Assembly: GCA_927439925.1 (NCBI GenBank)
Contig: CAKMKF010000202.1
Coordinates: 1-33,315, forward strand
Direction: 5' to 3'
Length of the DNA: 33,315 nucleotides
From: an uncultured Acholeplasmataceae bacterium
Lineage (GTDB): Bacteria; Bacillota_I; Bacilli_A; Acholeplasmatales; Acholeplasmataceae
The notes beneath the pieces are model-generated. The model worked only from the letters and a program-made list of their open reading frames with translations, was not told the DNA's origin and ran no database searches. Numbering within the stretch: position 1 is the stretch's first letter; every line of letters begins with the position of its first letter. Position numbers and translations under genes: made by a program. Below, piece after piece: positions 12,835-32,708 of the stretch.

Positions 12835-14971
12835 TGACTTCCTCCTTCTTTAATATGATATCTAGTGATGTTAATTCAATTGATGATGACCCAACCATCA
12901 ATTGGAATCTTCCTGGTTCTATAACTTCATTTCCTTGGTCATCAAGATAGCTTAATAAAGATTTATTGATGACAAACTCAACAACTCTCCTTTGATGAGG
13001 AGCGAACCAAATCTTTTGAAAGCCTTTAAGTTCTTTTACTGGTCTTGAGATTGTAGCTACGTAATCTCTAATATATAACTGAACAGTTTCAAATCCACCT
13101 ATTTCAGTTTCGTTTTGAACATCGATAAAAAGAGATATTTCTTCATTTAAAGACATCTCAAATTGAGATAATCTTAAATTTTGATAACTAAATTTAGAAT
13201 ACGAAAGTCCAAAACCAAATGGAAATAATGGAGTATTGAGTTCATCTAAATAGTAACTGACGTATTCATTTCGATCTCCCTCAATTTTTGGTCTACCTGT
13301 ATTTAAGTGATTATAATAGATTGGAATTTGTCCGACATGTCTTGGATAGCTCATGGTAATCTTACCGCTTGGATTGATTACACCAGTTAAAATATCTGCA
13401 ATCGCGTCATTTGCCATACTACCTAAATAATAGACATCTAAAATAGCTTTAGCATCCATAATATTACTTAAATCAAATGGTCTTCCATGATAAAGAAGGA
13501 CAATTGAATCTAATCCAGCTTGTCTAAAAAATTCTACAAATTCTTCTTGATTTCTAGGTAGTTTAATATCGACTTTAGAATGTGCCTCGCCACTCTCTCT
13601 TTCATTTTCACCAAGAGCGAGTATAACTGCATCCACATTTTTTAATTCGATTAAATCTTCTTTCGTTAAATCCTCTACTCTAACAACTTGTTTAACAAAA
13701 GTCATTGATATATTTTTTTCTAATAATGTTTCTTTTAAGGTATGGTTTAGCTCATTTTTACCATGCCATGACCATGGACCGTTTGTATTTCTAGTTTCTG
13801 CGTAAGGACCAATTAGTGCGTATTTTTTATGTGTTGATAATGGTAATAAATTTTCATTTTTAAGCAGCACTACGGATTCATGAGCTACTTTTTTAGATAT
13901 TTCTAAATGATCATTTGAACGAACTAGTGTAGATTCAAGCTCAACACTCGCTCCTTTGTAAGGATTATCAAATAATCCGATTTCTTCTTTTAGCTTTAAT
14001 ACTCTAAGTACTGCTTCATCTAGCAACTTAATGTCAACTTCATGATTTTCAATTAATTTCTTTAAGTAATTGATATAACAAGTCGATGCCATTTCAATAT
14101 CAAGACCTGCAATAATTCCTTTTAAAGCTGCTTCTTCATCATTTTCTGCATTTCCATGAGGTACGACTTGATGAAGTGAATCATAATCTGTGATTGTTAA
14201 GCCATCAAACTTCCATAAATCTCTTAAAACACCTCTTAAAAGGTGTTTATTGATGGTTGCAGGTATGCCATCAAGTACATTAAATGATGTCATGATTAAT
14301 TTAGCACCAGCATCAATAGCAGCTTTATATCCTTTTAAGTAATAATTATGCAGACTTAATCTAGACACATCGACAGTATTGTAATCTCTTCCACCTTCTG
14401 CTGCACCATATGCAGCGAAATGCTTCACGCATGAAGCTACATTTCCATCTTGACTTATGTCATCTTGCTGATAGCCTTTCACCATTTCTTTCGTAAATAG
14501 TGCATTTAAATAAGGATCTTCTCCAAATCCTTCAACAACTCTACCCCATCTAGGATCTCTAGATAAATCTGCCATCGGAGAAAATGTGACGTGGATACCC
14601 GCAGTAGACGCTTCTATTGCAGAAACTCTCGCCATATCAAATGCGAGTTTTGGATTCCATGATGTAGATAATGCCAATGGCACAGGGAATATCGTTTCAT
14701 ATCCATGAATAATATCAGCCATGAAGACAAGTGGTATTTGATGTGTACTTTTTCGTAAATATTTTTCTTGAACAGAAATCATTTCTGCTGCATTATGAAT
14801 ACCTAAAACAGATCCTGCAGAAAAAACTTTCTTTTCTGTTAACCCTAATTCTTTCAGATGTCCAAAAACCTCAACTTCTATATCTCTAATGAAATGAAAA
14901 GGAGAAAGTTGCAGCAACTGTCCAATTTTTTCTTCGATGGTTAATTTTTTAAGTAATAAGTTGATATCCAT
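12818..14971 (-). CDS. Glycoside hydrolase family 3 beta-glucosidase (cytosolic)
   Basis: KHFAAYGAAEGGRDYNTVDVS, GLTITDYDSLHQV (candidate nucleophile Asp), PFGFGLSYSKFSY and a C-terminal FnIII-like domain; no signal peptide. Confidence 0.92.
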   Translation of the reverse strand: MDINLLLKKLTIEEKIGQLLQLSPFHFIRDIEVEVFGHLKELGLTEKKVFSAGSVLGIHNAAEMISVQEKYLRKSTHQIPLVFMADIIHGYETIFPVPLALSTSWNPKLAFDMARVSAIEASTAGIHVTFSPMADLSRDPRWGRVVEGFGEDPYLNALFTKEMVKGYQQDDISQDGNVASCVKHFAAYGAAEGGRDYNTVDVSRLSLHNYYLKGYKAAIDAGAKLIMTSFNVLDGIPATINKHLLRGVLRDLWKFDGLTITDYDSLHQVVPHGNAENDEEAALKGIIAGLDIEMASTCYINYLKKLIENHEVDIKLLDEAVLRVLKLKEEIGLFDNPYKGASVELESTLVRSNDHLEISKKVAHESVVLLKNENLLPLSTHKKYALIGPYAETRNTNGPWSWHGKNELNHTLKETLLEKNISMTFVKQVVRVEDLTKEDLIELKNVDAVILALGENERESGEAHSKVDIKLPRNQEEFVEFFRQAGLDSIVLLYHGRPFDLSNIMDAKAILDVYYLGSMANDAIADILTGVINPSGKITMSYPRHVGQIPIYYNHLNTGRPKIEGDRNEYVSYYLDELNTPLFPFGFGLSYSKFSYQNLRLSQFEMSLNEEISLFIDVQNETEIGGFETVQLYIRDYVATISRPVKELKGFQKIWFAPHQRRVVEFVINKSLLSYLDDQGNEVIEPGRFQLMVGSSSIELTSLDIILKKEEVNDFKK

Positions 14972-15002: not shown

Positions 15003-15962
15003 TTAGCAAGACTCCCTATAAATGACTGATCCTTTTGGATGTCCTATATTTCTAATTTTGTTGTTTTGGAGAATGTCAAGAATTGCACCTGCAACCTCTT
15101 TACCCCACAAGACGTGGTCAATGCCTATCGTCGTTAATTTAGGGGTTATATACTCCCCTAAATAAATATTATCAAATCCTGCAATTGCGATATCTTCAGG
15201 CACTCTAATGTTTTCTTCACGTAGTGCCTGCATCAATCCGATTGCAGATTCATCATTTGCACAGTAAATAAATCTAGGTCTATTTTTACTTTGTATTAAG
15301 TCTTTTCCAACTTGATACCCGCCTTGAATAGTGAAGTCACAATCAAAATGTTGATGTGTACCAATATTTCCATCCTTTAATGCAGCAACAAACCCGTCAT
15401 AACGGTGATTATTGTTAAATGCCACCTTAGGTCCTGATACATAACCAAAGTCTTTATAGCCCTTTTTAATCATCTCTTTGATGAAGTGATAAACTAGTCC
15501 TTCATTATCTATTAATGAGGAATAAATGTTTTTCCCGTCAAGCTTGCGATCTAAGACATATAAAGGTAGTCCATAATTTGCATAATTGATTAAGACATCA
15601 TCTAAAAGTTCATTATCAAAGATAATCGCACCATCCACTTGACGTTCTTTTAAGAGGTTAGCTGAGGATTTACCTGAGCTAACGACGATATTGAAGTTAT
15701 TTTCTTGAAGCTTTTGACGAATACCTTCTAAGACATCACTAAAGATAGGTCCTGCAAACCCGTAAATAAAGACACCAATACTACCCGTTCTTTTCGTTTT
15801 TAAATTTCTAGCGATTCCATTTGGATAATATTTTAGTGTTTCTGCAGCCTCTAGTATCCTTTTTTTCGTATCTGGATGAACATTGGGAAGGTTATTTAAG
15901 GCGTAGGATGCAGTTGAGATTGAAACTCCTGCTAGTTTAGCAACATCTTTGATAGTTGGCAT
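15003..15962 (-). CDS. LacI family transcriptional regulator
   Basis: MPTIKDVAKLAGVSISTASYALNNLPNVHPDTKKRILEAAETLKYYPN HTH, plus a periplasmic-binding-like effector domain. Start trimmed from 15989 to 15962, sharing 1 bp with the upstream stop codon. Confidence 0.95.
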   Translation of the reverse strand: MPTIKDVAKLAGVSISTASYALNNLPNVHPDTKKRILEAAETLKYYPNGIARNLKTKRTGSIGVFIYGFAGPIFSDVLEGIRQKLQENNFNIVVSSGKSSANLLKERQVDGAIIFDNELLDDVLINYANYGLPLYVLDRKLDGKNIYSSLIDNEGLVYHFIKEMIKKGYKDFGYVSGPKVAFNNNHRYDGFVAALKDGNIGTHQHFDCDFTIQGGYQVGKDLIQSKNRPRFIYCANDESAIGLMQALREENIRVPEDIAIAGFDNIYLGEYITPKLTTIGIDHVLWGKEVAGAILDILQNNKIRNIGHPKGSVIYRESC

Positions 15963-17575
15963 TATTTTTCTCCTATTCTTAGAATACATGCATAATATGG
16001 CGGAATATCCATTTGGTTGTTGATTTCAACTGAGTCATCATTTGAAATCAATAAACTGATTATTTTTCCTGGAATTTCAATATGCATTTTTTCTTCACTA
16101 AATGATCCGATGATAAGTAGTTGATCATTTTCGTTTTTTCGATAATATGCGAAAATTTTCTTATTTTCTTTCATAAAGGGAATAAACTCTCCATCAAGAA
16201 ATACTTGATGACTCTTTCTTATCTGAAACAGCTTTTTAAAATAGAAATACACTCCTTGGTGATTCGATAAATCATTTTTAGCATTAATATCTTTATAGTT
16301 AGGATTTACATCTAACCAAGGATTTCCTTTAGAAAATCCAGCATTTTTTGAATCATCCCATTGAAATGGAGTTCTTGAATTATCTCTACCTTTGGCATAG
16401 ATGGATTCCATCACTTGTTCATGTGGAATTCCTTGATTGGTTAATATTTGATAAATGTTTTTCGTTTCAATATCCTTATACTTTTCGATATGATCAAATT
16501 TTACACCAGTCATTCCGATTTCTTCGCCTTGATAGACATATGGAGTTCCTTGCATACCATATAAAATGGTAGCTAACATTTTAGAACTCATCACTCTAAA
16601 GTTTACGTTTCCATATCTAGAAATTGCTCTAGGTTGATCGTGATTTGCTAGAAATAGTGAATTCCATCCATCTTTATACATCACATTTTGTAATCTTTCA
16701 AAAACGTTTTTAAACTCAATTAAATCTAGTTTTTTTAATGCCCATTTCCCTTTACCTGGAACTTCATCTAAGCTGATATGAGAAAACTGAAAAATCATAT
16801 CGAGTAAGGGTTTCTCTCCAGAGGTGATCGATGCTGCTCTTTCTAAGGACAGTCCAGGCATTTCACCAACGGTCATGATATCTCTTCCTTTAAAGCACTC
16901 GTCATATAGCTCTTGAAGTCTTTGATTTAAATGTGGTCCATCAGATAATATTTTTCGATCAATATCTTTACCAATTAAATCTATAACATCTAATCTAAAT
17001 CCATCAATACCCATATCCAACCAGAAATTTACAATCTTATAAATATTTTTACGAAGGATTGGATGATCCCAATTTAAATCTGGTTGTTTTTTTGAGAATA
17101 GGTGAAAGTAATAAGAATTGGTTTGTGCATCATATTCCCAAGCTGATCCTCCAAAAACAGATCCAATATCAGAAGGTTCATCTCTCCAAACATAGAAGTC
17201 ACGATATGGATTATCCTTTGACTTCTTCGATTCAAGAAACCAATGATGTTCATCTGATGTATGATTAACAACTAAATCCATAATCAGTCTCATACCCATT
17301 TGATGCGTTTGTTCTATTAAATGCTTCATATCTTTCATGGTTCCAAAGATTGGATCAATTTCAAGATAGTTTTTAATATCATAACCATTATCATCCATTG
17401 GTGACTCATAAACAGGAGATAACCATATAACATCGACACCCAAATTTTTAAGATAGCTAAGTTTACTAGTAATACCTTTTAAATCACCAATACCATCACC
17501 ATTAGCATCCATGAAGGATAGTGGGTAGATCTGATAGACGACAGCATTTTTCCACCATTTTATTTCTTTTTCCAT
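15962..17575 (-). CDS. GH13 alpha-glucosidase (oligo-1,6-glucosidase/GH13_31-like)
   Basis: VYQIYPLSFMDANGDGIGDLKGI, MDLVVNHTSDEH, DGFRLDVIDLIGK, GEMPG, LANHDQPRAISRYG. Confidence 0.9.
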   Translation of the reverse strand: MEKEIKWWKNAVVYQIYPLSFMDANGDGIGDLKGITSKLSYLKNLGVDVIWLSPVYESPMDDNGYDIKNYLEIDPIFGTMKDMKHLIEQTHQMGMRLIMDLVVNHTSDEHHWFLESKKSKDNPYRDFYVWRDEPSDIGSVFGGSAWEYDAQTNSYYFHLFSKKQPDLNWDHPILRKNIYKIVNFWLDMGIDGFRLDVIDLIGKDIDRKILSDGPHLNQRLQELYDECFKGRDIMTVGEMPGLSLERAASITSGEKPLLDMIFQFSHISLDEVPGKGKWALKKLDLIEFKNVFERLQNVMYKDGWNSLFLANHDQPRAISRYGNVNFRVMSSKMLATILYGMQGTPYVYQGEEIGMTGVKFDHIEKYKDIETKNIYQILTNQGIPHEQVMESIYAKGRDNSRTPFQWDDSKNAGFSKGNPWLDVNPNYKDINAKNDLSNHQGVYFYFKKLFQIRKSHQVFLDGEFIPFMKENKKIFAYYRKNENDQLLIIGSFSEEKMHIEIPGKIISLLISNDDSVEINNQMDIPPYYACILRIGEK

Positions 17576-18783
17576 CCGAGAACCTCCATCCCTTCAATAA
17601 TGATAGGATGACTCATAAATGCGTCATGAACATCTTGAAATAAATATGCATTCACCATTAACAACTCTAAACCTTTATTAATTGAAAAATATCTCTTCGA
17701 TACCCATGGTGTATGTTCTTCAAAGTTAAATGCGTCATAAAACCCGTATTTACCCCATAAATGATCTATTTTTCTCATTTCATGTATTGCTGGTATCGAT
17801 AGTTCTGGTGTAAAAATTATGGATCCTATAGGACCAAATGGGGCGATTGTTCCATCTGTATCTAAGCGGTTCATCGTGTTTGGTAGCCCACCATAAACTC
17901 TATAACCTATTGGTGTGTCTGATGCAGTAAATCCAAAGAAATACTTTGAAAATGTTTTAAATTTATCTTGATAATCAATTGCACATGCTTGATGTGCATA
18001 GGTAGCTATCCTTGCATTTTCATACCATGAGACATGATCCTCATCTTGAATGCCCTTTAAATTTAACCATGCTAGCGGAAATTGATAAACAAATAATGAA
18101 TTTCCTGGGGTATAAATATATTCAAACTCTTTGTAATTCCCCTTAACTCTCAAAAATCCATTATACAAATCTTTTGCTAGATGTTTATATTTAGATCCAG
18201 CAACCATGACATACATCATGAGTTGTTCTGCAAACATATCCCATTGGTGGATAAACCCAGGTCTTTTTTCAACATAATCTCCACCACGATCGGGATTATA
18301 AGACATATGAAGTACAGACTTCCCTTGATAATCATGTGTAAAAATCTCCCAATTGATTCGGTTCATAATGATGTTTGTTATTTCACTAATCTTTTGATCT
18401 TTAAAAAATGAATCAACAGCAAGTACCCCACATAAACATAATGCAGTATCTATAGTAGAAAATTCGGTCTTAACGACTCTTTTACCTGTTTTAAAGTCAA
18501 GAAAGTGTGCGAAAAAACCAAACTCATGCATGATATTGTCTCTTAAAGTCTTTAAAGTACAATATGCCTTATGGTAAGCTTCTTCATAAGATAAATAATC
18601 ATGTTTCACACCAATGATAAGTGATGATAACATAAATCCAGTAGATGCAATCGAAGCTTTCTCTAAATTCATCGAGTGATCTAATGTTAAACCATATCCT
18701 TTTGAATTTGCATCAAAGTTAGTAAAATCTTTAAAAAAATCATATGCTGTTTTTTGAATTTCAAGTAATACGCTGTTGTCCAC
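17560..18783 (-). CDS. GH144-type (glycoamylase-like) protein without signal peptide, probable cytosolic endo-beta-1,2-glucanase
   Basis: 407 aa; GYGLTLDHS, ASIASTGFMLSS, GFFAHFLDFKTGKR, STIDTALCLCGVL, FTASDTPIGYRVYGG, DGTIAPFGPIGSIIFTPELSIPAI. Paralogue of the next ORF; starts with MDNSVLLEIQK and has no hydrophobic leader. Confidence 0.78.
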   Translation of the reverse strand: MDNSVLLEIQKTAYDFFKDFTNFDANSKGYGLTLDHSMNLEKASIASTGFMLSSLIIGVKHDYLSYEEAYHKAYCTLKTLRDNIMHEFGFFAHFLDFKTGKRVVKTEFSTIDTALCLCGVLAVDSFFKDQKISEITNIIMNRINWEIFTHDYQGKSVLHMSYNPDRGGDYVEKRPGFIHQWDMFAEQLMMYVMVAGSKYKHLAKDLYNGFLRVKGNYKEFEYIYTPGNSLFVYQFPLAWLNLKGIQDEDHVSWYENARIATYAHQACAIDYQDKFKTFSKYFFGFTASDTPIGYRVYGGLPNTMNRLDTDGTIAPFGPIGSIIFTPELSIPAIHEMRKIDHLWGKYGFYDAFNFEEHTPWVSKRYFSINKGLELLMVNAYLFQDVHDAFMSHPIIIEGMEVLGWKKK

Positions 18784-18855: not shown

Positions 18856-20235
18856 CTACTCTACTGGTGTGAAATCTAACGCATTTAAGCCATCAATGAT
18901 ATAAGGCACTTCCATGTAGATCTTCCATATCATTTCAGATAGATAATTTTCAATCATTAAAATGGATATTCCTTTATCGATTCCTATAATATCATTGGCA
19001 AACCATCCATTGGTGGAATGCGTTAAATTATAAGCTCCCTTGAAACCATAGATACTCCAAAAACGTTCATAGGTTCTATAATTTTCAATTGCACGAATCG
19101 CTTCTTCTGGTCTAAATACGATAGACCCTATCGCACCGTATGCTGGTACAGTTCCATCGACTACATGTGCATTTCCCATCGATGGACCTGATCCATAAGG
19201 TCCCACATATCCACTAGGTCCATCACTTGCTGACATTCCCCATGAATCTTCATGAATACCTATATAAGTTGCTGTTTGTGTTTTTGCATAAGATATCGCT
19301 GCATCTACAGCGTCTTGACTGTTTTTGAACCATGAATATCCTTGTTGGTCATTAACTTTTGCAAAGTCTACCCATGCATGTGAATATTGATAAGTAAATA
19401 ACGAACCTGTCCAAGTCATATAAAACGAATCATAGTCTTCAGCTGAACCTGATTTTACACTATTGAATTTCATTAATGAATATGCACCTTTACCAACTGG
19501 ATGCGTTGGTGAACCTGCAGCCAATACGTAGATCATCAATTGTTCACCGTAGTGATCCCAATATCCTTCAAATCCAGATTCAGGACGGTAACCCATATAA
19601 AACATGTTATTGACACCATCAAAATACCAATCCCATTCAATGTCTTCATAAAGTTGATAAGCAAGTTTTTCAACACGCCCGCCGAAATATCTACCAACAG
19701 TTAATGCACCGTTGATAAAAATCGCTGAATCGATGATGGATACTTCAGAATTCCATTCTCTGATCCCGGTTTGCATATTGACAAAGTGATACCAGAAGCC
19801 ATTCGTTCTTTGCATATTTTGAAAAGTGACTAAGGTGTAATATGCTCTTTCTTCACCTTCGGCTCTCGTGATAAATTCATTTTCTATACCACTAGGAATC
19901 GCGGATAAACCGTATCCAACGGATGCGATTGAAGAAACTCCTCCAGGGTTTCCTGTAAATGTATTGAAACGATCAGGAATTAAACCATATCCGCTAGACG
20001 TCAAATCATCATTTGCGAGTTCCCAGAAAAAGTTAAATCCGAGTTCTAGTTCATCTAGTACAACCTGTGGAACATCTTCTCTAACAGATGTACGATATAG
20101 TGTCGTATTTTCTGGTGGAGTTGTGGGGATAACTGTTTCTATTGGTTCTGTAGGAACTACTGTAGGATCTGCTACACATGAAGCGAAACCAAATCCAAAT
20201 AAGATAATTAGTAATATCAATATATATTTTTTCAT
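18856..20235 (-). CDS. GH144-type (glycoamylase-like) lipoprotein, probable extracellular endo-beta-1,2-glucanase
   Basis: 459 aa; lipoprotein signal MKKYILILLIILFGFGFASC, Pro/Thr linker, then SGYGLIPDRFN, SSIASVGYGLSAIP, GFWYHFVNMQTGIREWNSEVSIIDSAIFINGAL, GMSASDGPSGYVGPYG, DGTVPAYGAIGSIVFRPEEAIRAI. Confidence 0.8.
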   Translation of the reverse strand: MKKYILILLIILFGFGFASCVADPTVVPTEPIETVIPTTPPENTTLYRTSVREDVPQVVLDELELGFNFFWELANDDLTSSGYGLIPDRFNTFTGNPGGVSSIASVGYGLSAIPSGIENEFITRAEGEERAYYTLVTFQNMQRTNGFWYHFVNMQTGIREWNSEVSIIDSAIFINGALTVGRYFGGRVEKLAYQLYEDIEWDWYFDGVNNMFYMGYRPESGFEGYWDHYGEQLMIYVLAAGSPTHPVGKGAYSLMKFNSVKSGSAEDYDSFYMTWTGSLFTYQYSHAWVDFAKVNDQQGYSWFKNSQDAVDAAISYAKTQTATYIGIHEDSWGMSASDGPSGYVGPYGSGPSMGNAHVVDGTVPAYGAIGSIVFRPEEAIRAIENYRTYERFWSIYGFKGAYNLTHSTNGWFANDIIGIDKGISILMIENYLSEMIWKIYMEVPYIIDGLNALDFTPVE

Positions 20236-20238
20236 TTT

Positions 20239-21168
20239 TTACTCTCCTGTAACACCGGTTTTTTCAACACCTTCAACAAACCATCTTTGGATGGTGAAAT
20301 AAACAATAACCATCGGTAAGATAATGAGAAGGGTTGCTGCTAATCTAACACCTTCATTAATTCTTAGTAATTCATCTGATGAATAAAGCTGTGTATATTC
20401 TGAAACAAAGTTTGCGAGTCTCAATTGAAGATTTGGATATGCTGAGCCTAAGAATAATGAAGCGATATAGGTTTCATTCCAATACCATACAAGACCAAAT
20501 AAAAATGATGTAATAAATGCAGGGACTGCAAGCGGTACTCCGATTCTAAAGAATATGTAATAAGGTCCTGCACCATCAATTTCTGCTGCTTCATTGATAC
20601 TTTGAGGAATCATTCTAAAGAATTGATAGAATATTAAGATGAAGATTGCAGAATTCACACCTTGACCAAAGATTGATGGCAAAATGATTGATAATGGTTT
20701 TTCAAGTAACCCAAATTCAAAGAACATGACGTATCTTGGAATCATGTAAACTTGAACTGGAATAATAAATGTCATTAAGACTAAGACTAACCACATTTTT
20801 TTAAACTTGAAGTTAAATTTTGCGAATCCATAACCTATTAAAGCAGTAACAGCTGTTTGAATTAATGCTGGAAGTAATGTTACGACTAAACTCTTACCTA
20901 AGGTTGGAAAGAATCTTAAGACTCTAAATGCTCTTTCATAGTTTCCAAAATAGATTGATGTTGGAACCCAATTGACCATTGGGTTGACAATATCAGATTG
21001 GCTCTTTAATGAATTGGAAAGCATATAAAGCATTGGATAAATGTATAAAAATCCAATAGCTATCAAAAGTATGTAAATGATGATCTTAGCTAAAGTTGAG
21101 TTCGTACCATTCGTACCCAATATAAATCTTTTCACTCTTGACTTGATGTTCTTTTGATAATCTTTCAT
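20239..21168 (-). CDS. Carbohydrate ABC transporter permease (MalG/UgpE type), pair 2
   Basis: Multiple TM helices; EAA loop SINEAAEIDGAGPYYIFFRIGVPLAVPA. Confidence 0.93.
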   Translation of the reverse strand: MKDYQKNIKSRVKRFILGTNGTNSTLAKIIIYILLIAIGFLYIYPMLYMLSNSLKSQSDIVNPMVNWVPTSIYFGNYERAFRVLRFFPTLGKSLVVTLLPALIQTAVTALIGYGFAKFNFKFKKMWLVLVLMTFIIPVQVYMIPRYVMFFEFGLLEKPLSIILPSIFGQGVNSAIFILIFYQFFRMIPQSINEAAEIDGAGPYYIFFRIGVPLAVPAFITSFLFGLVWYWNETYIASLFLGSAYPNLQLRLANFVSEYTQLYSSDELLRINEGVRLAATLLIILPMVIVYFTIQRWFVEGVEKTGVTGE

Positions 21169-22058
21169 TTTCTCTTTCCCCCTTCTTTAACAGTTTTGGG
21201 GATAAAGATGAGTGCGACTAACCCAATCATTAACATCACGATAATGAAATAGACCCATGCCATGGCGGATGCCATACCGTATCCTGTATTGATATTAAAC
21301 ATATTGGATTTTATGCTTATAATGACAGCATTTTCACTAAATGTTGATAATAAGACAATGGTGTAAATCACATTGATAAATACCAAAGTAGATAGTGAAG
21401 GTAGAGTTATCTTCCAAAATGATTCCCAAGGTCCTGCTCCATCGACTCTAGCTGCTTCATAGATCTGACGATCTACTTTTTGAAGTCCCGCTAAAAAGAT
21501 TAAAATCTGAACACCTGAAAACCAGAAAATGATAATAATCTCTGAGAATACACTAATAATCGGTGCTGCTAATCCTGGATTTAACGTATTTTCGATAATC
21601 GTAATGAAACCATAGCTTTCAAAAATTGCTGCACCACCAGCACCTTGAGTGATTAACTCATTAATGACCGGTCCACTAGAAATAATAACTGGCAAGAAAA
21701 ATATCGATCTAAACATTCCTCTACCCTTAAGTGGTTGATTGAGTAAAACTGCAATCAACACAGAGAAAACGATAATAATTGGAACTTGAAAGACGATTTC
21801 CTTAAGAAATGAGATAAGTGCTTCAATAAATTGGAATCCTTCTTCAATTTGGAAAATGTTCTTAAAGTTTTCAAACCAGTGGAATGAAACATCAATACCA
21901 CTACCTAATATTTTAACTTCAGACATTGAATAGATTAACGAGGAGATAAAAGGATAAAACATAAAAACAAAGAACCCGACTATCCAAATGCCGATAAATG
22001 AATAACCGATTAAGTTTTCGCGGAGTGCTCTTGTCATCTTTTTCTTCTTCATCTTCAT
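21165..22058 (-). CDS. Carbohydrate ABC transporter permease (MalF/UgpA type), pair 2
   Basis: Multiple TM helices; EAA loop QIYEAARVDGAGPWESFWKITLPSL. Confidence 0.92.
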   Translation of the reverse strand: MKMKKKKMTRALRENLIGYSFIGIWIVGFFVFMFYPFISSLIYSMSEVKILGSGIDVSFHWFENFKNIFQIEEGFQFIEALISFLKEIVFQVPIIIVFSVLIAVLLNQPLKGRGMFRSIFFLPVIISSGPVINELITQGAGGAAIFESYGFITIIENTLNPGLAAPIISVFSEIIIIFWFSGVQILIFLAGLQKVDRQIYEAARVDGAGPWESFWKITLPSLSTLVFINVIYTIVLLSTFSENAVIISIKSNMFNINTGYGMASAMAWVYFIIVMLMIGLVALIFIPKTVKEGGKRK

Positions 22059-24304
22059 CCTCCTAACGGTACGTTAAAGTAATTTATTTCATAGTTCTTA
22101 GGTTCTATGGTTAGACTACCTTGAATATAAGTTGTTTCTCTATAATTGACATAAATTTCAATACCATTATCATAGGTGATCTTAATCACACCATTAGCAA
22201 TCACTTCACGATCTTCAATTCTCGAACCAATTACATGAGAAAGCGCACCATCAACAAATTCATGATAGGTTAATATAGACTTCTTAATATCATCATATTT
22301 AGATGAATAAATCGATTCCAATCCAGTATCTTGAAGTTCCTTAGATGATTCTTTCGTCACGACGAATGATGGGTATACACCAAAATCTATTAATCTTAAG
22401 AGTTCATCTCTTGCATAAGGATAAAAGTTCGCGTGCGGACCAAATAGTTCGATCGATCCACTTAAAACAATCGACAAAAATGGAACTGTATCATCAAAAG
22501 TAATGTATTGAGATGAATACATTGGGAAATCATAATATAAATCAATAGAATTCCATAAATATGAATTGACATCATAAAGCGCTATCTCTTTTTCAACACT
22601 TGATAATAACTCTTGATACATTAAAATAGCTTCCAGAAGGTATTTTTGATTTCCAAAGTCATCATACAAAAGACTTCCCATGGATTCTATCGCGAAGCCA
22701 TCAATTGGTTTATCTGATAACTTTTCAATACTATCATTCATAATACTTCTAACTGCGTGATATTCAAGTAAGTATTTCGTATCGGTTCCAGATAGATAAG
22801 TATATAATTGATCATTAATCTTTTTCGCTAAATCAAAGTATTGATTATAACCAGCAGATTGATTGCTAGCCTTCATATATTCTGTAACGAAATATAAGCT
22901 ATCAAGCGCTTCTTGAAGAGACGCTAAGTCGTCATTAGACCCTAATCTTCTAGATATATTTTCATACTGTGGTGCTGACCATGTCACACCACGCTTCGTG
23001 AAGCCACTAAAATTACCAATAATATAATCAATTCCATTTTCTTTTAAATCTAGGGTGATCTCTCTAAATTCATTAAAAGTCGTCATTACCGTTGTTTGAT
23101 TAAAGAGTAACCCTTTATTCTTTTCGATACCTATCGCGTCTAATCTTAAAGGAATTGAGTCATGTGAGCTTTGATAAGCTTCTAGTTCAAGATAATCACG
23201 GTAAGTTTTTGCCATACCAACATAATTTGCATGCTCATTTTCTAAAAGTGTATATTCGATTTTAATATCGATTGGATTACTAAATGATTGTAATAGTGAA
23301 ATGGTGTTTCCAACTTTATCGATTGGTTGACGATATGTCTTTCTATAGACAAATTCAGAGAATACAGTCGTAAAACCTCTCGTTCTTGCAGGAAAATATA
23401 GGTTAATCATCGCGTACTCTGAACCGCTTGTAATATTCGCGAGTACTGCGTTTTGATTCACTCCATGAACAAACCCAAAGACAGGAGCGTATATTTTCGT
23501 ACCTCCACTTAAGAAATTATTCATATTAGGCTCTAAATTATAACCAATATTACGATCATAAATTTCTTTTTGATAATTGGTTGAAATTAGAGGATCCGTT
23601 AATTTATAATCGACTAAAGCTCCTATACCGTCAGGTAAGAATACATAGCCTGGTATTTGATTTTCTAGTACTGCACCAAAATATGGATAGACTTTAATCG
23701 ATGATATTTTATATGCTCCACTTTCGTTAATCTCTTCATAAGGAATTTCTACCTTAATCGAATCCAGTCCAAATGTTACATATAAACCAATTTGAATACC
23801 TGATCTACCAAAGGTTATGGTTGAATGGAATCCATTGGTGATTAAGGTCGTTTCGATTTCTGTATTATCTTCAAAAAGGTTTTCTTCAGTTAATGCGAAA
23901 CTAGCGACTCCTGTATTAAAGGACTCTAAAATAATAGCTGTTCTAGCACGTCTTTTAAATGTGTTTGGTAAACCTTCTAAATCTGTATTAATGGTAGATG
24001 ACCAAATATATCCATTATCATTAACAACTTGAAAAGCGAGCGATTCAGGATCTAAATAAACTGTCCCGTAAATCGTTTCGATTTCTATTGGTTCTTCAAA
24101 GAAATCTTGTTGGTTCACTGCGATATCACTTGATTTCATGTGAGAATACTTATTTGAATCAACAAGTGGAATTATTTCATCAAAATTAGGAATGGAATCT
24201 ATCTGATTATTTTCAGGAGCTAAGAAAGCATTTACACCAAAACCTATTGAAACAAACATCAAGATGATGATTAATCCACGCTTAAAGAATATAGGCTTAA
24301 ACAC
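22055..24304 (-). CDS. DUF5696-type exported/membrane-anchored protein, possible glycoside-hydrolase-like TIM barrel
   Basis: 749 aa; N-terminal hydrophobic anchor, beta-rich N-terminal half, then a region with barrel-like segments (LDAIGIEKNKGLLFNQTTVMTTFNEFREITLDLKENGIDYIIGNFSG; PIDGFAIESMGSLLYDDFGNQ). The family name is by recall and genomic context. Confidence 0.55.
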   Translation of the reverse strand: MFKPIFFKRGLIIILMFVSIGFGVNAFLAPENNQIDSIPNFDEIIPLVDSNKYSHMKSSDIAVNQQDFFEEPIEIETIYGTVYLDPESLAFQVVNDNGYIWSSTINTDLEGLPNTFKRRARTAIILESFNTGVASFALTEENLFEDNTEIETTLITNGFHSTITFGRSGIQIGLYVTFGLDSIKVEIPYEEINESGAYKISSIKVYPYFGAVLENQIPGYVFLPDGIGALVDYKLTDPLISTNYQKEIYDRNIGYNLEPNMNNFLSGGTKIYAPVFGFVHGVNQNAVLANITSGSEYAMINLYFPARTRGFTTVFSEFVYRKTYRQPIDKVGNTISLLQSFSNPIDIKIEYTLLENEHANYVGMAKTYRDYLELEAYQSSHDSIPLRLDAIGIEKNKGLLFNQTTVMTTFNEFREITLDLKENGIDYIIGNFSGFTKRGVTWSAPQYENISRRLGSNDDLASLQEALDSLYFVTEYMKASNQSAGYNQYFDLAKKINDQLYTYLSGTDTKYLLEYHAVRSIMNDSIEKLSDKPIDGFAIESMGSLLYDDFGNQKYLLEAILMYQELLSSVEKEIALYDVNSYLWNSIDLYYDFPMYSSQYITFDDTVPFLSIVLSGSIELFGPHANFYPYARDELLRLIDFGVYPSFVVTKESSKELQDTGLESIYSSKYDDIKKSILTYHEFVDGALSHVIGSRIEDREVIANGVIKITYDNGIEIYVNYRETTYIQGSLTIEPKNYEINYFNVPLGG

Positions 24305-26330
24305 GATAGATCACCTCCTTGATAATCGATAAAATAAATTCAATTAATTGTCCAATGAATGAATATATGAGTAAACCGATTAAGATTAAAATAAACATAC
24401 CAAAGATAATAATCAAAATATTTTTAATCGTTTCCATGAGTGTGTAATTATGGACCCATTTAATGGATAAGAAAATCAAGATAAGCGTCCACCATAAAAT
24501 GATTTGATGGTAAAAATCAAAAATGAAAGTCTCATTGTATGTCAAATAATTGGAAAGGAAAGTCATCGGTAAAGTAAACACGATAAATGGTGCGAGAATA
24601 TATGATGTTGATATAAATACATCCTTAAATCTACCTTCACCATCATTTAAAGTTGATATTAAGTAGTTGACCAAGACATAAAGTGAAAAGAACGAGATCA
24701 CTGTGATCAATTGAACAACAACACTATTTAGATTAGATGTTCTAAATAAGAAACCTGTCGCGTAAATATTAACTAAATAAACAATGATAAAGAGCCCGTA
24801 AACAATAAGCCCGGATGCATAACTCGCTTCATTCATCCTTTTAATTCCATAAAACATATCATTAGGTCTTTTGATGACGTTTAGGCTATACGTCACTTCT
24901 TTAATCAATTTCTTATTTAAGATATATTCCTTCTTCTCGATATATTTCGGATAAACCATTGATTTTCTAAAGACCGATAGTCCAATTTTTAAGAATAGGT
25001 ATAACCCAAATAATACAATCGCGAATGTTGGTAGATTTTGTTGAATAGAAACATTTCTTATTTCCCAAAACGCATTTGAATATCCTAAATAATCTCTCGC
25101 GTCATAAAATTCAGATAAAGCCTCGTCATAAGCTCCTTCTTTCATTAACGCTGCACCTAATGCTGAATGTGCTAACGCAAACGAAGAGTTTTGACGAATG
25201 ATTTCTTCCCATATTGGCTTAGATTCAACATATTTACCGTCATTATAAAGGGTTACTGCTTCATGAACTAAATCAACAAATACTGTTCTTTGGTAAACAT
25301 GAATTGAATTGTATCCACGGTCTAATATATATAAATTACCTGAGTTATCGGTTACAATCCCCTTAGGATTAGAGGTGAGTCCAAGCGTTTGAGTGAGTGC
25401 ATTATCCTTCGTATTGAAATAGAAAAGCATATTTCCATTTGAATCATATTCATAAACATCACCGTTGTCTGATGTTAAATAAATATAGGATTCATTGTTC
25501 ATCCAAATATCCGATAAAACTTGAGTTGGATATACTGTTGTAGGTAAAAGTGTATTGACTCCAGATATATTGAGTCTCTTAAATGTTTCATTCACATTGA
25601 CATTTGTTGATAAAATAGCACCTTTTTGACCTAACGCGATATTGGTAGGTGATGCAGGAAGACTTGATGCTAAATCAGGATCTTGAACAAAGAAGTTATA
25701 TAAGATTCTTCTTAATGAAAGTGTTACTGTATTGATTCCTAAATATCCTACAAATTCTCCAGCGTAATTCATTTGAATGACGCCAGATGTCGAGCCTTCA
25801 CCAACAATATAAATCGAATCACTTGAGTCAACCGCGACCTTAATAGGGACGAAATCATTTTTCTGACCGTAAATTGGAGAGGTTGGTTTCACGATGGTTT
25901 GAACAATGGTTTCTGTTAATAAATCAATTTTATATACTTCTTTGGATAACTTATCTGCGACATATAGAAAATCATCTTTAACAAATACACCTGTTGGTTG
26001 TTGAAAAACGGGTAATTCGATTAAGCTGATTAACTCTCCAGATATAGAAGAAACAACAATTCTTTTATTTCCTGTATCTGCTATATAAAATAAATTGTCA
26101 TAAAAATAGATATCTTCAGGAAATGATAGACCTAAATCACGACCAAAATTACCAACAGGAATATAAGCTGCTTGCGTCGGTATCAGTCTTTTCGATGAAT
26201 TGAGTGTGTAGGTTTGATAAGGAATGCCATAATTCGATAAACTTGAGGCTTCTGCTTGATGAAAACCAAGTGACAATATGAAAGTCATTAAAATGATGGT
26301 CAATAGAAATAGTTTTTTCATATGACTCAC
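24297..26330 (-). CDS. Exported NHL-type beta-propeller/TPR protein with a C-terminal Yip1-like polytopic membrane domain
   Basis: Signal peptide; NHL-like repeats (GLSFPEDIYFYDNLFYIADTGNKRIVV, QPTGVFVKDDFLYVADKLSKEVYKID, NPKGIVTDNSGNLYILDRGYNSIHVY); TPR-like segment (YNDGKYVESKPIWEEIIRQNSSFALAHSALGAALMKEGAYDEALSEF); several C-terminal TM helices. Confidence 0.7.
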   Translation of the reverse strand: MSHMKKLFLLTIILMTFILSLGFHQAEASSLSNYGIPYQTYTLNSSKRLIPTQAAYIPVGNFGRDLGLSFPEDIYFYDNLFYIADTGNKRIVVSSISGELISLIELPVFQQPTGVFVKDDFLYVADKLSKEVYKIDLLTETIVQTIVKPTSPIYGQKNDFVPIKVAVDSSDSIYIVGEGSTSGVIQMNYAGEFVGYLGINTVTLSLRRILYNFFVQDPDLASSLPASPTNIALGQKGAILSTNVNVNETFKRLNISGVNTLLPTTVYPTQVLSDIWMNNESYIYLTSDNGDVYEYDSNGNMLFYFNTKDNALTQTLGLTSNPKGIVTDNSGNLYILDRGYNSIHVYQRTVFVDLVHEAVTLYNDGKYVESKPIWEEIIRQNSSFALAHSALGAALMKEGAYDEALSEFYDARDYLGYSNAFWEIRNVSIQQNLPTFAIVLFGLYLFLKIGLSVFRKSMVYPKYIEKKEYILNKKLIKEVTYSLNVIKRPNDMFYGIKRMNEASYASGLIVYGLFIIVYLVNIYATGFLFRTSNLNSVVVQLITVISFFSLYVLVNYLISTLNDGEGRFKDVFISTSYILAPFIVFTLPMTFLSNYLTYNETFIFDFYHQIILWWTLILIFLSIKWVHNYTLMETIKNILIIIFGMFILILIGLLIYSFIGQLIEFILSIIKEVIYRV

Positions 26331-27215
26331 CTACTTTATACCCGAATTGACCATCGTTGACATAACCTTACTTTGAAGGAATATGAAGATAATCAAGTTC
26401 GGTAAGAACATAATTAGAGATGCTACTGCACTCATACCAGCTCCTGCAACAACGTTGGAGGAGGCTGAAAGTGTCTGCATATAATACGCAAATGTTTTTA
26501 AACTATCGGTATTGACGTAGGTTGCTGATATACCTGCATCATTCCAAACCATTTGGAAGGATAGAATCGCGATGGTCGCGATTGCAGGCTTAATTAATGG
26601 AAGTATAATCTTCCAGTAAATCATAATACTTGATGCTCCATCTATTTTAGCAGCATCTAGTAATTCATTTGGAATTTGGTCGATAAATTGTTTGACTAGA
26701 AATAAACCAACCGGTATCGCGATGACTGGAATAATGTGAACCATAAAATTATCGATTAGACCAAGCTGTTCAATGATGATATATCTTGGAATAATAACTG
26801 CTGTACCAACAAACATCATTGCTAAGGTATTGATTTGTGAGATGACTCCTTTGATATGGAATTTTAATTTAGATAACGCATAACCAGTTATGGTTGCTAA
26901 AAAAATTGATAGAAAGACAACGACTGCTGTAATTAAAATACTATTGAAAAGATATCTTGTGACAGGAATACCTGTAGTCGTCGCTGTTTCAAATAATTCG
27001 AACATATTGTCTAATGTTGGTCTTCTAACGAAGAATCTTGGTGGGTATTCAATCAATTCATCAAATGGCTTAAATGCGTGATTAAAAATATATAAAAGTG
27101 GCATTAACATAAATGTAGCGATAGGAAGTACCATCAATAAAAATGGCATTTGTCCCCAACCAAAGCGAGTAGGATTAATTTTGATGGCTCTAAAATTTCT
27201 TATTTTTCTCATCAT
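26331..27215 (-). CDS. Carbohydrate ABC transporter permease (MalG/UgpE type), pair 1
   Basis: EAA loop ELLDAAKIDGASSIMIYWKIILPLIKPAIATIA; multiple TM helices. Confidence 0.93.
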   Translation of the reverse strand: MMRKIRNFRAIKINPTRFGWGQMPFLLMVLPIATFMLMPLLYIFNHAFKPFDELIEYPPRFFVRRPTLDNMFELFETATTTGIPVTRYLFNSILITAVVVFLSIFLATITGYALSKLKFHIKGVISQINTLAMMFVGTAVIIPRYIIIEQLGLIDNFMVHIIPVIAIPVGLFLVKQFIDQIPNELLDAAKIDGASSIMIYWKIILPLIKPAIATIAILSFQMVWNDAGISATYVNTDSLKTFAYYMQTLSASSNVVAGAGMSAVASLIMFLPNLIIFIFLQSKVMSTMVNSGIK

Positions 27216-27222
27216 ATTCCCC

Positions 27223-28173
27223 CTAATCTCTTTCCCCGAAGAATCTCCATGATAATCTACTGAAGAAATAAATAATCAGTAAAAGAACTAGAGATAATGC
27301 GGCAGCATAACCCATGTCATAACGAATAAATCCGTAATCTTCAATGTGGTTTACAATTAAGGATCCTGCATAGTTTGGTGTTGGATTGGACCCTGACAAG
27401 GAAACACCTAATGCACCAGCACTAAATGTACCTACAATGGCCATGACTGCACCAAATAGCATTTGGGGCTTCATGGCAGGTATAGTTATATAAATAACTT
27501 CTTGGAATCTTGAATTTAATCCGTCAATATAAGCAGCTTCATAAAGCTCTTGATCGACATTGAGAATACCTGCAAGCATCGCTAAGAATCCAATACCCAT
27601 AGACCCCCATAACGCGACAACTAACATAATGGTAAATAAATATTGAGGTGATTGTAAGAACGCGATAGGTTCTACAATCATTCCTAATTCTAGTAACATA
27701 TAGTTTAGATAACCAGATTCATCACCTGCAAAAAATACACGCCAAACGACTGTCATGGTAACACCCGCTGTCAGTGATGGAGAGTATAAAACGATAGCTA
27801 ATACTGTTCTTAGTTTATGGGGTAATTGAGCTAAAGCCCACGCCATAACAAATGATAAGATATATCCACCAGGACCTACAATGACTGCGAATTTAATCGT
27901 GTTCGGTAAGATATATTTCATAAATTCTTCGTCACTCGTTAACAAATAAATATAATTATTAAAACCAGTAAAGGTTGGAAATGAGACCATATCAAAGGTC
28001 GTAAATGATAGTATTATCGCCAACGCGATTGGGATAACAATGAACGCTAGAAATAAGATGATATACGGCAATGTGAAAAGATAAGCGGCTTTATCATCAT
28101 TTTTAAACTGCTTTTTTTCCAACTCTATAAACTTTTTAAATCTTAATTTTAAGGACTCTATTCTACTCATCAT
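27223..28173 (-). CDS. Carbohydrate ABC transporter permease (MalF/UgpA type), pair 1
   Basis: EAA loop [29 protein letters not shown]; multiple TM helices. Confidence 0.92.
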
Positions 28174-31132
28174 ACCACCTCAAGATTTCTTCAACTGTAG
28201 GTAGATTGAACGGTTTTAAGACATTTCCTCTACTATCTAGATAGCCAAACTCAACCATCTTTCTAGCAAGCTCACGATCAATCTTGATGAGTGCATCACT
28301 CACGGTGCTTCTTAAATTGGCATCATTGTAGACAACACTATTCCAAGTGTTACTGATTTCTCTTTCTACGATATAACTACCAGGAATTTTAGGTACTTCC
28401 TTTAAATGTGTCCATTGTTCTAATATGATATCTTGATGTGCTCTATTTAAACTTAACGATTCAAAAGCTTCAAGATTCGCTGTATTCCATATATATCTTG
28501 TTCCTAATGTATTTAATAAAGTATTCGAAAATAACACTTGAGTTTCTGTAGACATCCACCAACTGATAAACTCCCAAGCTTCTTCTTTCTTATCTGATTT
28601 TTCAAAGATGATAGACGCTTGTTGTGCTCCACCCATTGAGCGGTTGATAACAGTTTCCATCATATTGGTTTCCTCATTCATTTTTTCATGAGGAATACCA
28701 GGAACAAGTGCGATATCCCATAAACCACTAATATCACTTGCTGCATTGGTTAACTGCAAGTACATACCAAAATCACCAATACCAATTGGAATATCTCCAT
28801 ATCTAAAACTGTTAAAGAAACTTGGCACTTGGTAAGGCATGCTATATTCACGATATAAATCTGTCATAAAGGATAATGCTTGAACCGTATTTTCATCATC
28901 AATTGCAGCTCCAAAGCCATCATCTGCGTATATTTTACCTTCAAATTGATAGATTAAAGGTGCTGTTGAGTCAAAAGATTTTAAAGCAGATGATGAAGAT
29001 AGTGGAATATAAAAACTCATACCGTAACGTCTAAGTACTGGCAACATATCTAAAACATCTTGCCAAGTGTTTGGTACTTCTAAGTCTAGCTGATCTAGTA
29101 TATCTTTTCTATAGAATAAGACAAAGAAGTTTTCAGTTTCTGGTAGACCGTATAACTTATTGTCAAAAGTCATCGGAATCAGTTGTTCTGGATTGAACAC
29201 AGATATCGTTTGACTAAAACCATTAGCTTGACTCATGTCATATAGCATGCCACGCATGCCATATTCATTTGGAATCCATGCAGAAATACCTAAAGCAGCA
29301 TCTGGTTGTTGGTCTGCTGAATTAGCAAGTAGTAATTTTGAATCATCATTAATTAATGAAATTTTTACTTTAATACCTGTTTGATTGGTAAATTGATCAT
29401 CGGTTATCTTTTGAATCAAGTCAACATATTGTCTAGAACGATTTACCCAAATTTCTAATTCATCTGGATCTGCTTTTTCTGAATAAGACTGATCCACGAA
29501 TGATAGGAAAAAGCGAGAAATTGAAACACTTAAGCTTTTGAATAAATTTGGATTTGCATTTGGTAGATCATCTAAATCAGAATGGATAAAAATCGCGTCT
29601 AATATTAAAGGTTGTTTGATGATATTGTCAAATTGATTAGATATCAGTTGTACAGCACTAGAAGAACCTGTTGATAATAAAGTTAATCTTCTAGGCAACT
29701 CATTGATATCACTTTGAATTGTTACAATCTTTTGTTTTGCTGCTTCTATATCTCTAACAATTTGTGCAGTTCGATTGAAACCATATAATGCTCTAATCAC
29801 GTCTTTAACTTCATCAAGTTCTTCGATCCATCTTGCTAAATCATCATTTAAACTAGGAAAATAATCGAGCATTTCCCAATCAATACCACGGTCTGTATTA
29901 TTTCTAGTCAGCTTTGTAACATCTAAACCGAGTGCACTCATTTCAGAAGTGATCATTCTTAATTTTTCTAGTGTAGATGAAAATAAAGAACTATCGACTT
30001 CTAAAGTGATTTCATCACCTGGTTCTAAATAAACCTTGATCTTTTCTTGATCAATTGTCATCAATGTCGCGTTTTGCCAATTTCTATCATAGGAAATTGG
30101 TAAATGCTTCGCTTCCTCAAAAGGAATTTCACCATTGATATAAAGTGTTCGATAGGATGTAGCATTTTGTCTTAACATTTGAGCGCGAAGCGTAATGTAA
30201 TACCATCCTGAATTTTCGATATCTACTACCCAAGTCACTGCATCTCCACCATTATCATAAGAATCAGTACCCAAGACGTTTAATTTCAATTTGGTCATAG
30301 AAAAAGGCTCAACCAAAGGATCTCTACTTGTTCCTCTAGCGATTGTAGATGAGTTTTTATAAATATTTTCTTCTGCTTCAATTCGAATAAATTCATTTGA
30401 AACTGGTTCATTGTAACTAGAAATATATTCATTATAGGTTATGTAGTTTTTCTTTGTTTCTACACGAACCTCTTTAAGCATCAAGCTTCCTGATATCTTT
30501 TCAATCTCAATGGTATTATTACCCTCTTCGAGATAGAAACCTAATCCTTCTTGATACAGTTTTCTTGTATCTCTAATTAAGACATCTTGATAGATATCAA
30601 CTGTCTCTTGAGCGATACTTACATCGTTGCCATAACGATCAGTCCCTAAATCTGTTGCTGATTCTCGCCAAAGTGTAGGTAGTGTTATTTGTGATGCCTC
30701 ATAATAAGGGGATTCTTCTGCTCCATTCAGCTTTACTGCTAATCCAATTGGAATATGGGTATTTGATAGTGATTTATAATTTAAATGTATGTAATAAAGT
30801 CCAGCATTGTCAATATTTAAATTGATAAAAATACTAGAATCCTCGACCCATTCAAAATTCATTTGGTCACTTTCAAGCTCCTCGTTATCAGGCAATACAA
30901 AATCCACTGCTTGTATACTTATCGATACATCAGTGCTTGGTTCTAAAACGTTATATTCACTCAAATACTTTGAGTAATGATTTTCTAAGTAAATATTTTC
31001 GAGAGTGCTTAGTGTAGGTGTAGGAGATTCTTTTGGTGTGAATACACCAGCAAGCCCCAAAATAGCAAATGAGGAAACAAGCAAAATCAATGATATCGTC
31101 ACAATTTTTTTCATTTTCGGTGTTATTTTCAT
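28163..31132 (-). CDS. Membrane-anchored fusion protein: two CBM-like beta-sandwich modules plus a family 1 extracellular solute-binding domain
   Basis: ~989 aa. N-terminal TM/signal [26 protein letters not shown] without lipobox Cys; two modules with [13 protein letters not shown].../[12 protein letters not shown]... beta-sandwich-like patterns; C-terminal SBP ([67 protein letters not shown]). Start trimmed to the Met at 31132, which has GGAG upstream. Confidence 0.8.
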
Positions 31133-31156
31133 CTGTTTCTCCATTCAAGAATGTGT

Positions 31157-31199: not shown

Positions 31200-32666
31200 T
31201 TATTTATTTCCTAAAGCAGTTTCAAATTCATCATTGGCTTCTGTATAAAGAGCATTTGCTCTAGTATTCAATTGAACACGAATATCAGCTAATGCCACTT
31301 CTCCAGCCATTAATTTAGTCATAATATCAGACATCTTATTTTCAGCATCATAAGTTCCTGAATATCTTGCAGCAATATATCCTGGTAAGTATTTAGGAGG
31401 TTCTACGATAAATGTACCTGTTTCAATAATTGTTCTTAATCCTGTAAATGTAGGATATAGTTCAAAATAAGCATCAAGTAATTCTACATCATTTTGGATT
31501 GGTGCGAAATTGACCTGTGAAATACCAGGAACAGTTTCTGATAACTCAACACGCTTTAAATAACCATCTTTACCAAATCCCATCCATTTAGAAAGTAAAT
31601 AAGCTTCTTCTGGATGTTCTGTGTTCGATGCAATCGTATAAAAGTCAGCAACGATTGGTACACGCTTGTTTCCACCTACAACTGGAGTTCCGATAAATTC
31701 AAGATCCCAACTGTATTGACCACTATTGATATTGGCTTGCATCCAACCAAAATCCCATGAATAGAACCATTTCGCTAAAATGTTACCATTATTGAATGGA
31801 TCACCTTCAGGGAAAATATTTCCGATTTCTATCGTTGAATCTTCAGCACCAGCAGCATCATACAACGCTTCTAATACATAGGTTTGATCTGTTCTTAATG
31901 TTCTATATGTTTCCATAGTTGTTGTAAATTCTGTTGAATTCAAATTGAATCCAGAATCAGAAAGGGTAAACCAACGATAATTTGTATTCAGTTGTGCAGG
32001 ATACCAGTGAATGATATGTTCAATACCTTCTAAACCTACAACACCTGTATTGTTATTGGATGCATGATTTGCAGCAGCCTTCGTTAAACTCAAGAATTCT
32101 GTCATTGTAGAATCAATGGTAGGAAAATCTTGACCTTGACGATCATATAAAGTTTCATTAACAACATAACCAGCATAGTGAACAGCATTTGGAATTGCCA
32201 TCACTTTAGAATCGTATGTTGCTACACCTCTAATATCTTCACTCACATTCAAATATTCAGGATCAGCATTTGCGACTGTAGTTAAATTATAAGCCCAGTC
32301 ATTAATGATATAAAAAGGAATATTGTCTGCTTGAAAGACATCAGGAAGTGTTTGAGTTGATGCTCTAGCTGCTAAAAATTCATTCCATCCCAAATCATCA
32401 TTTGTTCCTGGAATTTTAGGTCTTTCAATAATTTCAACTTTAATATTTGGATATTTTTCTTCAAAAGCTTCAATCATTAAACGTTGCATATTAGGTTCTT
32501 CAGAATCAGGAGATCCTAAATCCCAAGAAGCGTAAGTAATCGTTACTTGTCCATCTACCGGTATCGTTGGATCAACAGTAGGTTCTACAGTTGGTGTAGA
32601 ATCACCACAAGCAACCAAAACCAATGCAAATAAAATGATGGAAACCAGCATTAATATTTTTTTCAT
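31200..32666 (-). CDS. Extracellular solute-binding lipoprotein (family 1), sugar ABC transporter
   Basis: Lipobox MKKILMLVSIILFALVLVACGDS; SBP pattern VTITYASWDLGSPDSEEPNMQRLMIEAFEEKYPNIKVEIIERP. Start trimmed from 32687 to 32666, where GAGGA is at correct spacing. Confidence 0.92.
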   Translation of the reverse strand: MKKILMLVSIILFALVLVACGDSTPTVEPTVDPTIPVDGQVTITYASWDLGSPDSEEPNMQRLMIEAFEEKYPNIKVEIIERPKIPGTNDDLGWNEFLAARASTQTLPDVFQADNIPFYIINDWAYNLTTVANADPEYLNVSEDIRGVATYDSKVMAIPNAVHYAGYVVNETLYDRQGQDFPTIDSTMTEFLSLTKAAANHASNNNTGVVGLEGIEHIIHWYPAQLNTNYRWFTLSDSGFNLNSTEFTTTMETYRTLRTDQTYVLEALYDAAGAEDSTIEIGNIFPEGDPFNNGNILAKWFYSWDFGWMQANINSGQYSWDLEFIGTPVVGGNKRVPIVADFYTIASNTEHPEEAYLLSKWMGFGKDGYLKRVELSETVPGISQVNFAPIQNDVELLDAYFELYPTFTGLRTIIETGTFIVEPPKYLPGYIAARYSGTYDAENKMSDIMTKLMAGEVALADIRVQLNTRANALYTEANDEFETALGNK

Positions 32667-32708
32667 AATTTTTCCTCGTTTCTTCAATAATTAAACATAA
32701 AACCTAAA

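Follow-up and report, generated by a model that had tools for sequence, protein, structure and literature searches.

In the 33,315-nucleotide stretch of DNA analysed here (hereafter the window), which is contig C202 (CAKMKF010000202.1) of the 1.9-Mb draft genome of an uncultured Acholeplasmataceae bacterium (GCA_927439925.1), seven genes lying end to end on the minus strand were found by computation to constitute one conserved unit. In the order of transcription these are bigSBP, which codes for a large solute-binding protein (SBP), permA, permB, the NHL-TPR-Yip1 gene, the DUF5696 gene, permC and permD. On balance, they appear to specify one co-inherited apparatus for glycan uptake, which we judge to be a new and widespread variant of the carbohydrate uptake transporter 1 (CUT1) type of ATP-binding cassette (ABC) importer. 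Glycan uptake in Gram-positive bacteria, wall-less bacteria and Chloroflexota is usually described by a model with one SBP and one permease pair; in place of the single pair of CUT1 importers, every copy of the present module carries two (103 of 103 loci).

A preliminary description of the window, made from the sequence alone, had placed an SBP of about 990 residues, four CUT1-type permeases with EAA loops and proteins of the NHL/TPR/Yip1 and DUF5696 kinds side by side in one operon, and the open reading frame (ORF) calls bear this out, with the overlaps and gaps agreeing to the base. The genes of the module are as follows:

bigSBP, 28163..31144, minus strand: transmembrane-anchored protein in which two beta-sandwich domains precede a helical domain and residues of about 560-993 form an SBP domain at the C-terminus
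permA, 27223..28173, minus strand: MalF-type permease with a variant coupling loop
permB, 26331..27215, minus strand: MalG/UgpE-type permease with an EAA loop
NHL-TPR-Yip1, 24297..26330, minus strand: membrane protein recognized by Pfam matches, alignment and a transmembrane scan
DUF5696, 22055..24304, minus strand: PF18952 protein with an N-terminal transmembrane anchor and a GH129-like predicted fold
permC, 21165..22058, minus strand: MalF/UgpA-type permease with an EAA loop
permD, 20239..21168, minus strand: MalG/GlcU-type permease with an EAA loop

The bigSBP ORF begins at 31144, and position 31132, used as its start in the preliminary description, is the second methionine. In the window bigSBP and permA overlap by 11 bp, permA and permB are separated by 7 bp, and permB abuts the NHL-TPR-Yip1 gene with a gap of 0; the remaining junctions are overlaps of 8 bp (NHL/DUF5696), 4 bp (DUF5696/permC) and 4 bp (permC/permD). 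Across loci the median spacings, in the same order, are -11, 2, 8, -8, -4 and -4 bp, the overlaps being kept.

Conservation and co-occurrence of the module

The order bigSBP>A>B>NHL-Yip1>DUF5696>C>D is kept in all 103 non-redundant loci with sufficient flank (no less than 7.5 kb on the upstream and 2.6 kb on the downstream side), drawn both from relatives of the source genome and from a collection scan, as well as in six more copies that are divergent and two that are annotated on plasmids. The close relatives of the source genome include metagenome-assembled genomes of Acholeplasmataceae, and the module as a whole spans three phyla, from Acholeplasmataceae, Bacillus, Paenibacillus and Lachnospiraceae through to Chloroflexota and Thermotogota. 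The collection scan, which was built on the closer subset of DUF5696 proteins (21 very diverse members yielded no sufficiently conserved stretch), recovered 80 named loci from Acholeplasmataceae, Izemoplasma, Haloplasma, Bacillus, Lederbergia, Paenibacillus, Cohnella, Lachnospiraceae, Chloroflexota and Thermotogota. Similar clusters had been mentioned in the preliminary description for Paenibacillus-like genomes, and they do occur in Paenibacillus, including P. cellulosilyticus. A search for conserved gene neighbourhoods, named beforehand as one of the tests on which the claim of a single unit could fail, found conserved co-occurrence, and did not refute that claim.

The co-occurrence is near absolute. 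Matches to PF18952 above the cut-off are present in 41 of 61 relatives, and NHL-Yip1 and, by full-strength matches, bigSBP are found in exactly those 41 genomes. Among the relatives, 104 of 108 DUF5696 stretches are preceded, no more than 6 kb upstream and in the same orientation, by an NHL-Yip1 stretch, and 16 named genomes hold 55 DUF5696 genes, each with an NHL-Yip1 partner of its own (55 of 55). Four DUF5696 and seven NHL stretches lack a partner; those examined, which are not all of them, sit near contig ends, and for this reason lone matches to DUF5696, NHL or bigSBP were not counted as exceptions. The number of modules per genome also varies, with a maximum of 14 DUF5696 modules in Paenibacillus thermotolerans (G433, the genome of locus L153). 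Gene-distance (Mantel) correlations between the core genes range from 0.84 to 0.95, values which fit co-inheritance and cannot establish contact.

The components of the module

All four permeases match BPD_transp_1 above the Pfam cut-off and contain coupling loops of the MalF/MalG type (one reads NEAAEIDGA), which are conserved in alignments of 71 homologues. The loop of permB is standard, and that of permA is a distinct, non-standard version, EA[AG]xxDG[I/M/L], with an invariant QE. A natural permC-permD fusion, encoding a single protein of 629 residues (L089, 4180-6069; L091, 10896-12785), shows that C and D form a pair; one of the 103 flank-complete loci carries it, and the loss of permC from L089 and L091 is only apparent. 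A few loci have an oversized ORF for permB or permC, which looks like an over-extended start and not a fusion. When copies in beta-1,2-glucan and beta-1,3-glucan enzyme contexts (see below) are compared, permA and permB are 61 and 56% identical as against 38 and 45% for permC and permD, suggesting that the role of A/B is substrate-general and that specificity lies in C/D and the SBP. The operon contains no ATPase gene. A complete MsmX/UgpC-type ATPase of 370 residues, with Walker A, LSGGQ and Walker B motifs, is encoded elsewhere in the genome, OB_MalK matches fall on contigs C16 and C113, and in P. cellulosilyticus ugpC lies directly upstream of the module. Elements characteristic of CUT1 importers are available, namely MalF/MalG-type permeases with EAA loops, a carbohydrate-type extracellular SBP and a MalK/MsmX-type ATPase.

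The bigSBP protein gives a SBP_bac_8 match and a sub-threshold match to CBM_35 in Pfam. Its AlphaFold2 model (predicted local distance difference test, pLDDT, 88.8) starts with a transmembrane helix at 9-31, followed by the domains listed above; the sequence has no lipobox, and the protein is predicted to be anchored by this helix rather than by lipid. Its best Foldseek matches are Tlet_1705 (PDB: 5ci5) and the beta-1,2-glucooligosaccharide SBP of Listeria (PDB: 5ysb). The latter, Lin1841, is also the nearest relative of the SBP domain by sequence, and beta-1,2-glucooligosaccharides are a candidate ligand. A plain lipoprotein SBP adjoins most module copies in addition to bigSBP. The one in the window (31200..32687, minus strand; lipobox LVAC) matches SBP_bac_1 above the cut-off, and its only PDB relative is the recent entry 22hh (2.6e-51) with four sister entries (22hh-22hl). 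The sequence of 22hh is 90% identical to the SBP of a Chloroflexus module copy (L178), and therefore the structure of that module component has already been solved; no paper on 22hh-22hl was found.

In the NHL-TPR-Yip1 protein the NHL and Yip1 matches exceed the Pfam cut-off and the TPR match falls below it. A signal or anchor helix is followed by the propeller, which is predicted to lie outside, a TPR-like stretch, a transmembrane helix at 436-454, a basic loop and the membrane-embedded Yip1 domain, and the C-terminus carries a conserved EVxxR[V/G] motif in the alignment. In the peptidoglycan-type copies described below and in several Paenibacillus copies NHL-Yip1 is split over two genes.

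The DUF5696 protein matches PF18952 over the whole profile (472 bits against a curated cut-off of 25.6; 3.6e-141). Its AlphaFold2 model (mean pLDDT 91.8) has an N-terminal helix anchor, a beta-rich domain, a TIM barrel and a C-terminal beta-sandwich, and the first Foldseek match is glycoside hydrolase (GH) family GH129 (E 1.2e-30; template-modelling scores 0.62/0.70). A profile search agrees weakly with this likeness, and a Pfam search at E<=0.01 found no family besides DUF5696, and hence no GH129 membership by sequence profile. D225, which lies outside the barrel, is the one acid found to be invariant among 61 homologues. Acids 394, 605 and 640 are well conserved among close relatives of this copy, 640 alternating between D and E, and the region aligned, weakly, to D486 of ZgGH129 has glycine or variable residues and no conserved acid. 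A role for this protein as the trimming enzyme of the preliminary description does not fit the lack of a family-wide acid at the expected catalytic position; judged from sequence and model, it is probably a pseudo-glycosidase with a binding or positioning role.

Enzyme neighbours and substrate contexts

The neighbouring genes that accompany the module in the window are:

GH144-type enzyme, 18856..20235, minus strand: PF10091; signal peptide and lipobox, placed outside; PDB relatives include endo-beta-1,2-glucanase 5gzh
Second PF10091 (GH144-like) enzyme, 17560..18783, minus strand: without signal peptide
GH13 enzyme of the same gene cluster, 15962..17575, minus strand: Pfam
LacI-family regulator, 15003..15989, minus strand: Pfam
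GH3 beta-glucosidase-type enzyme, 12818..14971, minus strand: Pfam
SOGP-type GH94 phosphorylase, 9544..12834, minus strand: SOGP_N, 2nd and 4th domains; PDB 5h3z at 1.5e-235

GH144-type and SOGP-type GH94 genes, whose joint presence characterizes beta-1,2-glucan loci, stand together here and, with the GH144-like and GH3 genes, identify the cluster by its enzyme content as one for beta-1,2-glucan utilisation. The GH13 gene, of the alpha-glucosidase type, is retained inside this beta-glucan cluster in many relatives.

The enzyme neighbours differ between copies, and we assigned the substrate classes from them. Apart from copies with GH144, SOGP and GH3 as in the window (beta-1,2-glucan), there are copies beside GH144 and GH35 in Chloroflexota and Bacillus/Paenibacillus; a GH35 enzyme acting on beta-1,2-linkages has been described (PMC8861115). 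Other copies, such as L073, adjoin GH16, a weakly GH94-like protein of 1042 residues, and GH3 or GH30 (beta-1,3-glucan). A second module of the source genome, on contig C154 (L053), has as neighbours a DUF624 protein, NamZ, GH3, a BadF-type kinase, a MurQ-like SIS protein and a NagB-like isomerase, the domains having been called on the syntenic copy L061 with the same layout; this set points to uptake of peptidoglycan sugars. The bearer of this peptidoglycan-sugar gene set is an Acholeplasma-like, presumably wall-less bacterium. A third module of the same genome (C40; L054, 12854-15065) has a GH16 enzyme and then a response regulator downstream. The earlier suggestion of long or cyclic glucans as substrate consequently stands in part: beta-1,2-glucan fits the copy in the window, and a general specificity for such glucans does not fit paralogues beside enzymes for beta-1,3-glucan and peptidoglycan sugars.

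Proposed mechanism and alternative explanations

From these features we infer an importer with the following topology and division of labour. In the copy in the window, the outside lipoprotein GH144 would shorten beta-1,2-glucan, and the chains would be caught by the lipoprotein SBP and the membrane-tethered bigSBP. The membrane-anchored DUF5696 protein, with its probably dead GH129 fold, and the NHL propeller of the Yip1 protein may hold the chain or set its position, and may serve as docking sites that keep the binding proteins above the permeases. A/B and C/D would constitute two permease heterodimers driven by the common MsmX/UgpC-type ATPase encoded elsewhere, and inside the cell the second GH144-like enzyme, SOGP and GH3 would break down the product. 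That this apparatus is a single physical complex is about an even bet. Somewhat more doubtful is the full proposal, in which four permease subunits making up two channels are joined in one membrane complex with a tethered SBP, a dead glycosidase holding the chain and a scaffold made of the propeller/Yip1 protein. Such a complex would be a third glycan-uptake architecture, distinct from Sus-like systems and from simple ABC importers, and would be employed again and again for many glycans in different phyla.

Several points weigh against this interpretation. Contact between the two permease pairs is an assumption; the lipoprotein SBP present besides bigSBP at most copies would equally fit two separate importers; the catalytic inactivity of DUF5696 is deduced from a weak alignment and from residue conservation; and the distance correlations partly reflect shared ancestry, nearest-neighbour agreement with DUF5696 being only 0.55-0.66.

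The principal alternative, which we consider rather unlikely, holds that the locus encodes two neighbouring but separate CUT1 importers. In this reading A/B would work with bigSBP and C/D with the lipoprotein SBP to take up long and short chains, and DUF5696 and NHL-Yip1 would be accessories that bind glycan at the surface and are inherited together on account of their common pathway. Each pair indeed combines a MalF-type with a MalG-type permease, the EAA loops being intact, two SBPs adjoin most copies, the fusion makes C:D a complete pair, and C/D diverge faster than A/B. However, the pairs are never split in the 103 flank-complete loci, over three phyla and differing substrates, the accessory genes sit between the pairs with conserved overlaps, and the second SBP, which can also lie downstream, was missed by the profile in 21 of the 103 loci, perhaps merely because it is too diverged.

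Alternatively, C/D might be the only channel, with A/B and bigSBP acting as a substrate-independent sensor, gate or energy-coupled feeder that drives glycan from DUF5696/NHL-Yip1 into C/D. The far greater conservation of A/B between beta-1,2- and beta-1,3-glucan copies, the non-standard permA loop and the transmembrane anchor of bigSBP would suit such a role, which is nevertheless improbable given that the permB loop is standard and that the fold of the bigSBP SBP domain is normal and close to that of a beta-1,2-glucooligosaccharide binder. Marginally less probable still is DUF5696 as an active, membrane-anchored glycosidase trimming chains ahead of import: GH129 is its closest fold and the three acids of the close relatives are well conserved, but no barrel acid is invariant even in the 61 homologues, residue 640 swaps between D and E, the region aligned with D486 has no fixed acid, and one family serves beta-1,2-glucan, beta-1,3-glucan and peptidoglycan contexts. 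Chance clustering or recent local duplication of a permease pair, for which no support was found, is refuted by the invariant order in 103 of 103 loci over three phyla, by the 55 of 55 pairings and by the separate families of A/B and C/D, each conserved across phyla.

Relationship to known systems

The module shares with CUT1 importers that use a common MsmX/UgpC ATPase the MalF/MalG-type EAA-loop permeases, the extracellular SBP and an ATPase outside the operon, but differs from them in its two permease pairs, its transmembrane-anchored SBP of about 990 residues with extra domains, its two further membrane proteins and its invariant order. The beta-1,2-glucan cluster of Listeria innocua (SOGP Lin1839, GH3 Lin1840, SBP Lin1841; PMC3960220, PMC4757417) likewise combines an SOGP-type GH94 with GH3, and its SBP is the closest to the SBP domain of bigSBP; the difference lies in its descriptions, which in the relevant passages name one SBP of a putative ABC transporter. 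In Acholeplasma laidlawii a GH161/GH16/GH3 cluster that has two permeases but lacks an SBP adjoins a GH94 cluster in which ABC components come together with an SBP, and a shared SBP has been proposed (PMC6484121, in its passages on these genes). The GH94/GH161 clusters of that account resemble module copies such as L073 with their GH16, GH94-like and GH3 genes; the same passages treat them as two clusters and mention neither DUF5696, Yip1 nor conservation. The likeness of DUF5696 to GH129 (ZgGH129, NagBb) is confined to the overall predicted fold (Foldseek E about 1e-30), and the two differ in the approximately 12% identity, the absence of a conserved acid in the aligned catalytic region, the membrane anchor and the exclusive Pfam match to DUF5696. 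Literature searches on DUF5696 or PF18952 found no paper, nor was the module described in anything retrieved by searches that paired Yip1 with ABC transporters or used related terms.

A module of seven strictly conserved genes that reaches 14 copies in one genome would alter the annotation of transporters in many genomes and would give the unstudied DUF5696 and bacterial NHL-Yip1 proteins a testable role. It would also prompt the question whether two pairs of ABC permeases can work together as a single machine. If true, the single-complex architecture would extend to peptidoglycan fragments in wall-less bacteria.

Other features of the window

An ORF at 32785-33273, at the contig end, has two similar beta-rich units and no Pfam match, and probably represents the C-terminal portion of a secreted protein that was longer and is truncated by the contig boundary. 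The ORF at 3414-4664 encodes a secreted GLUG-repeat protein unrelated to the module.

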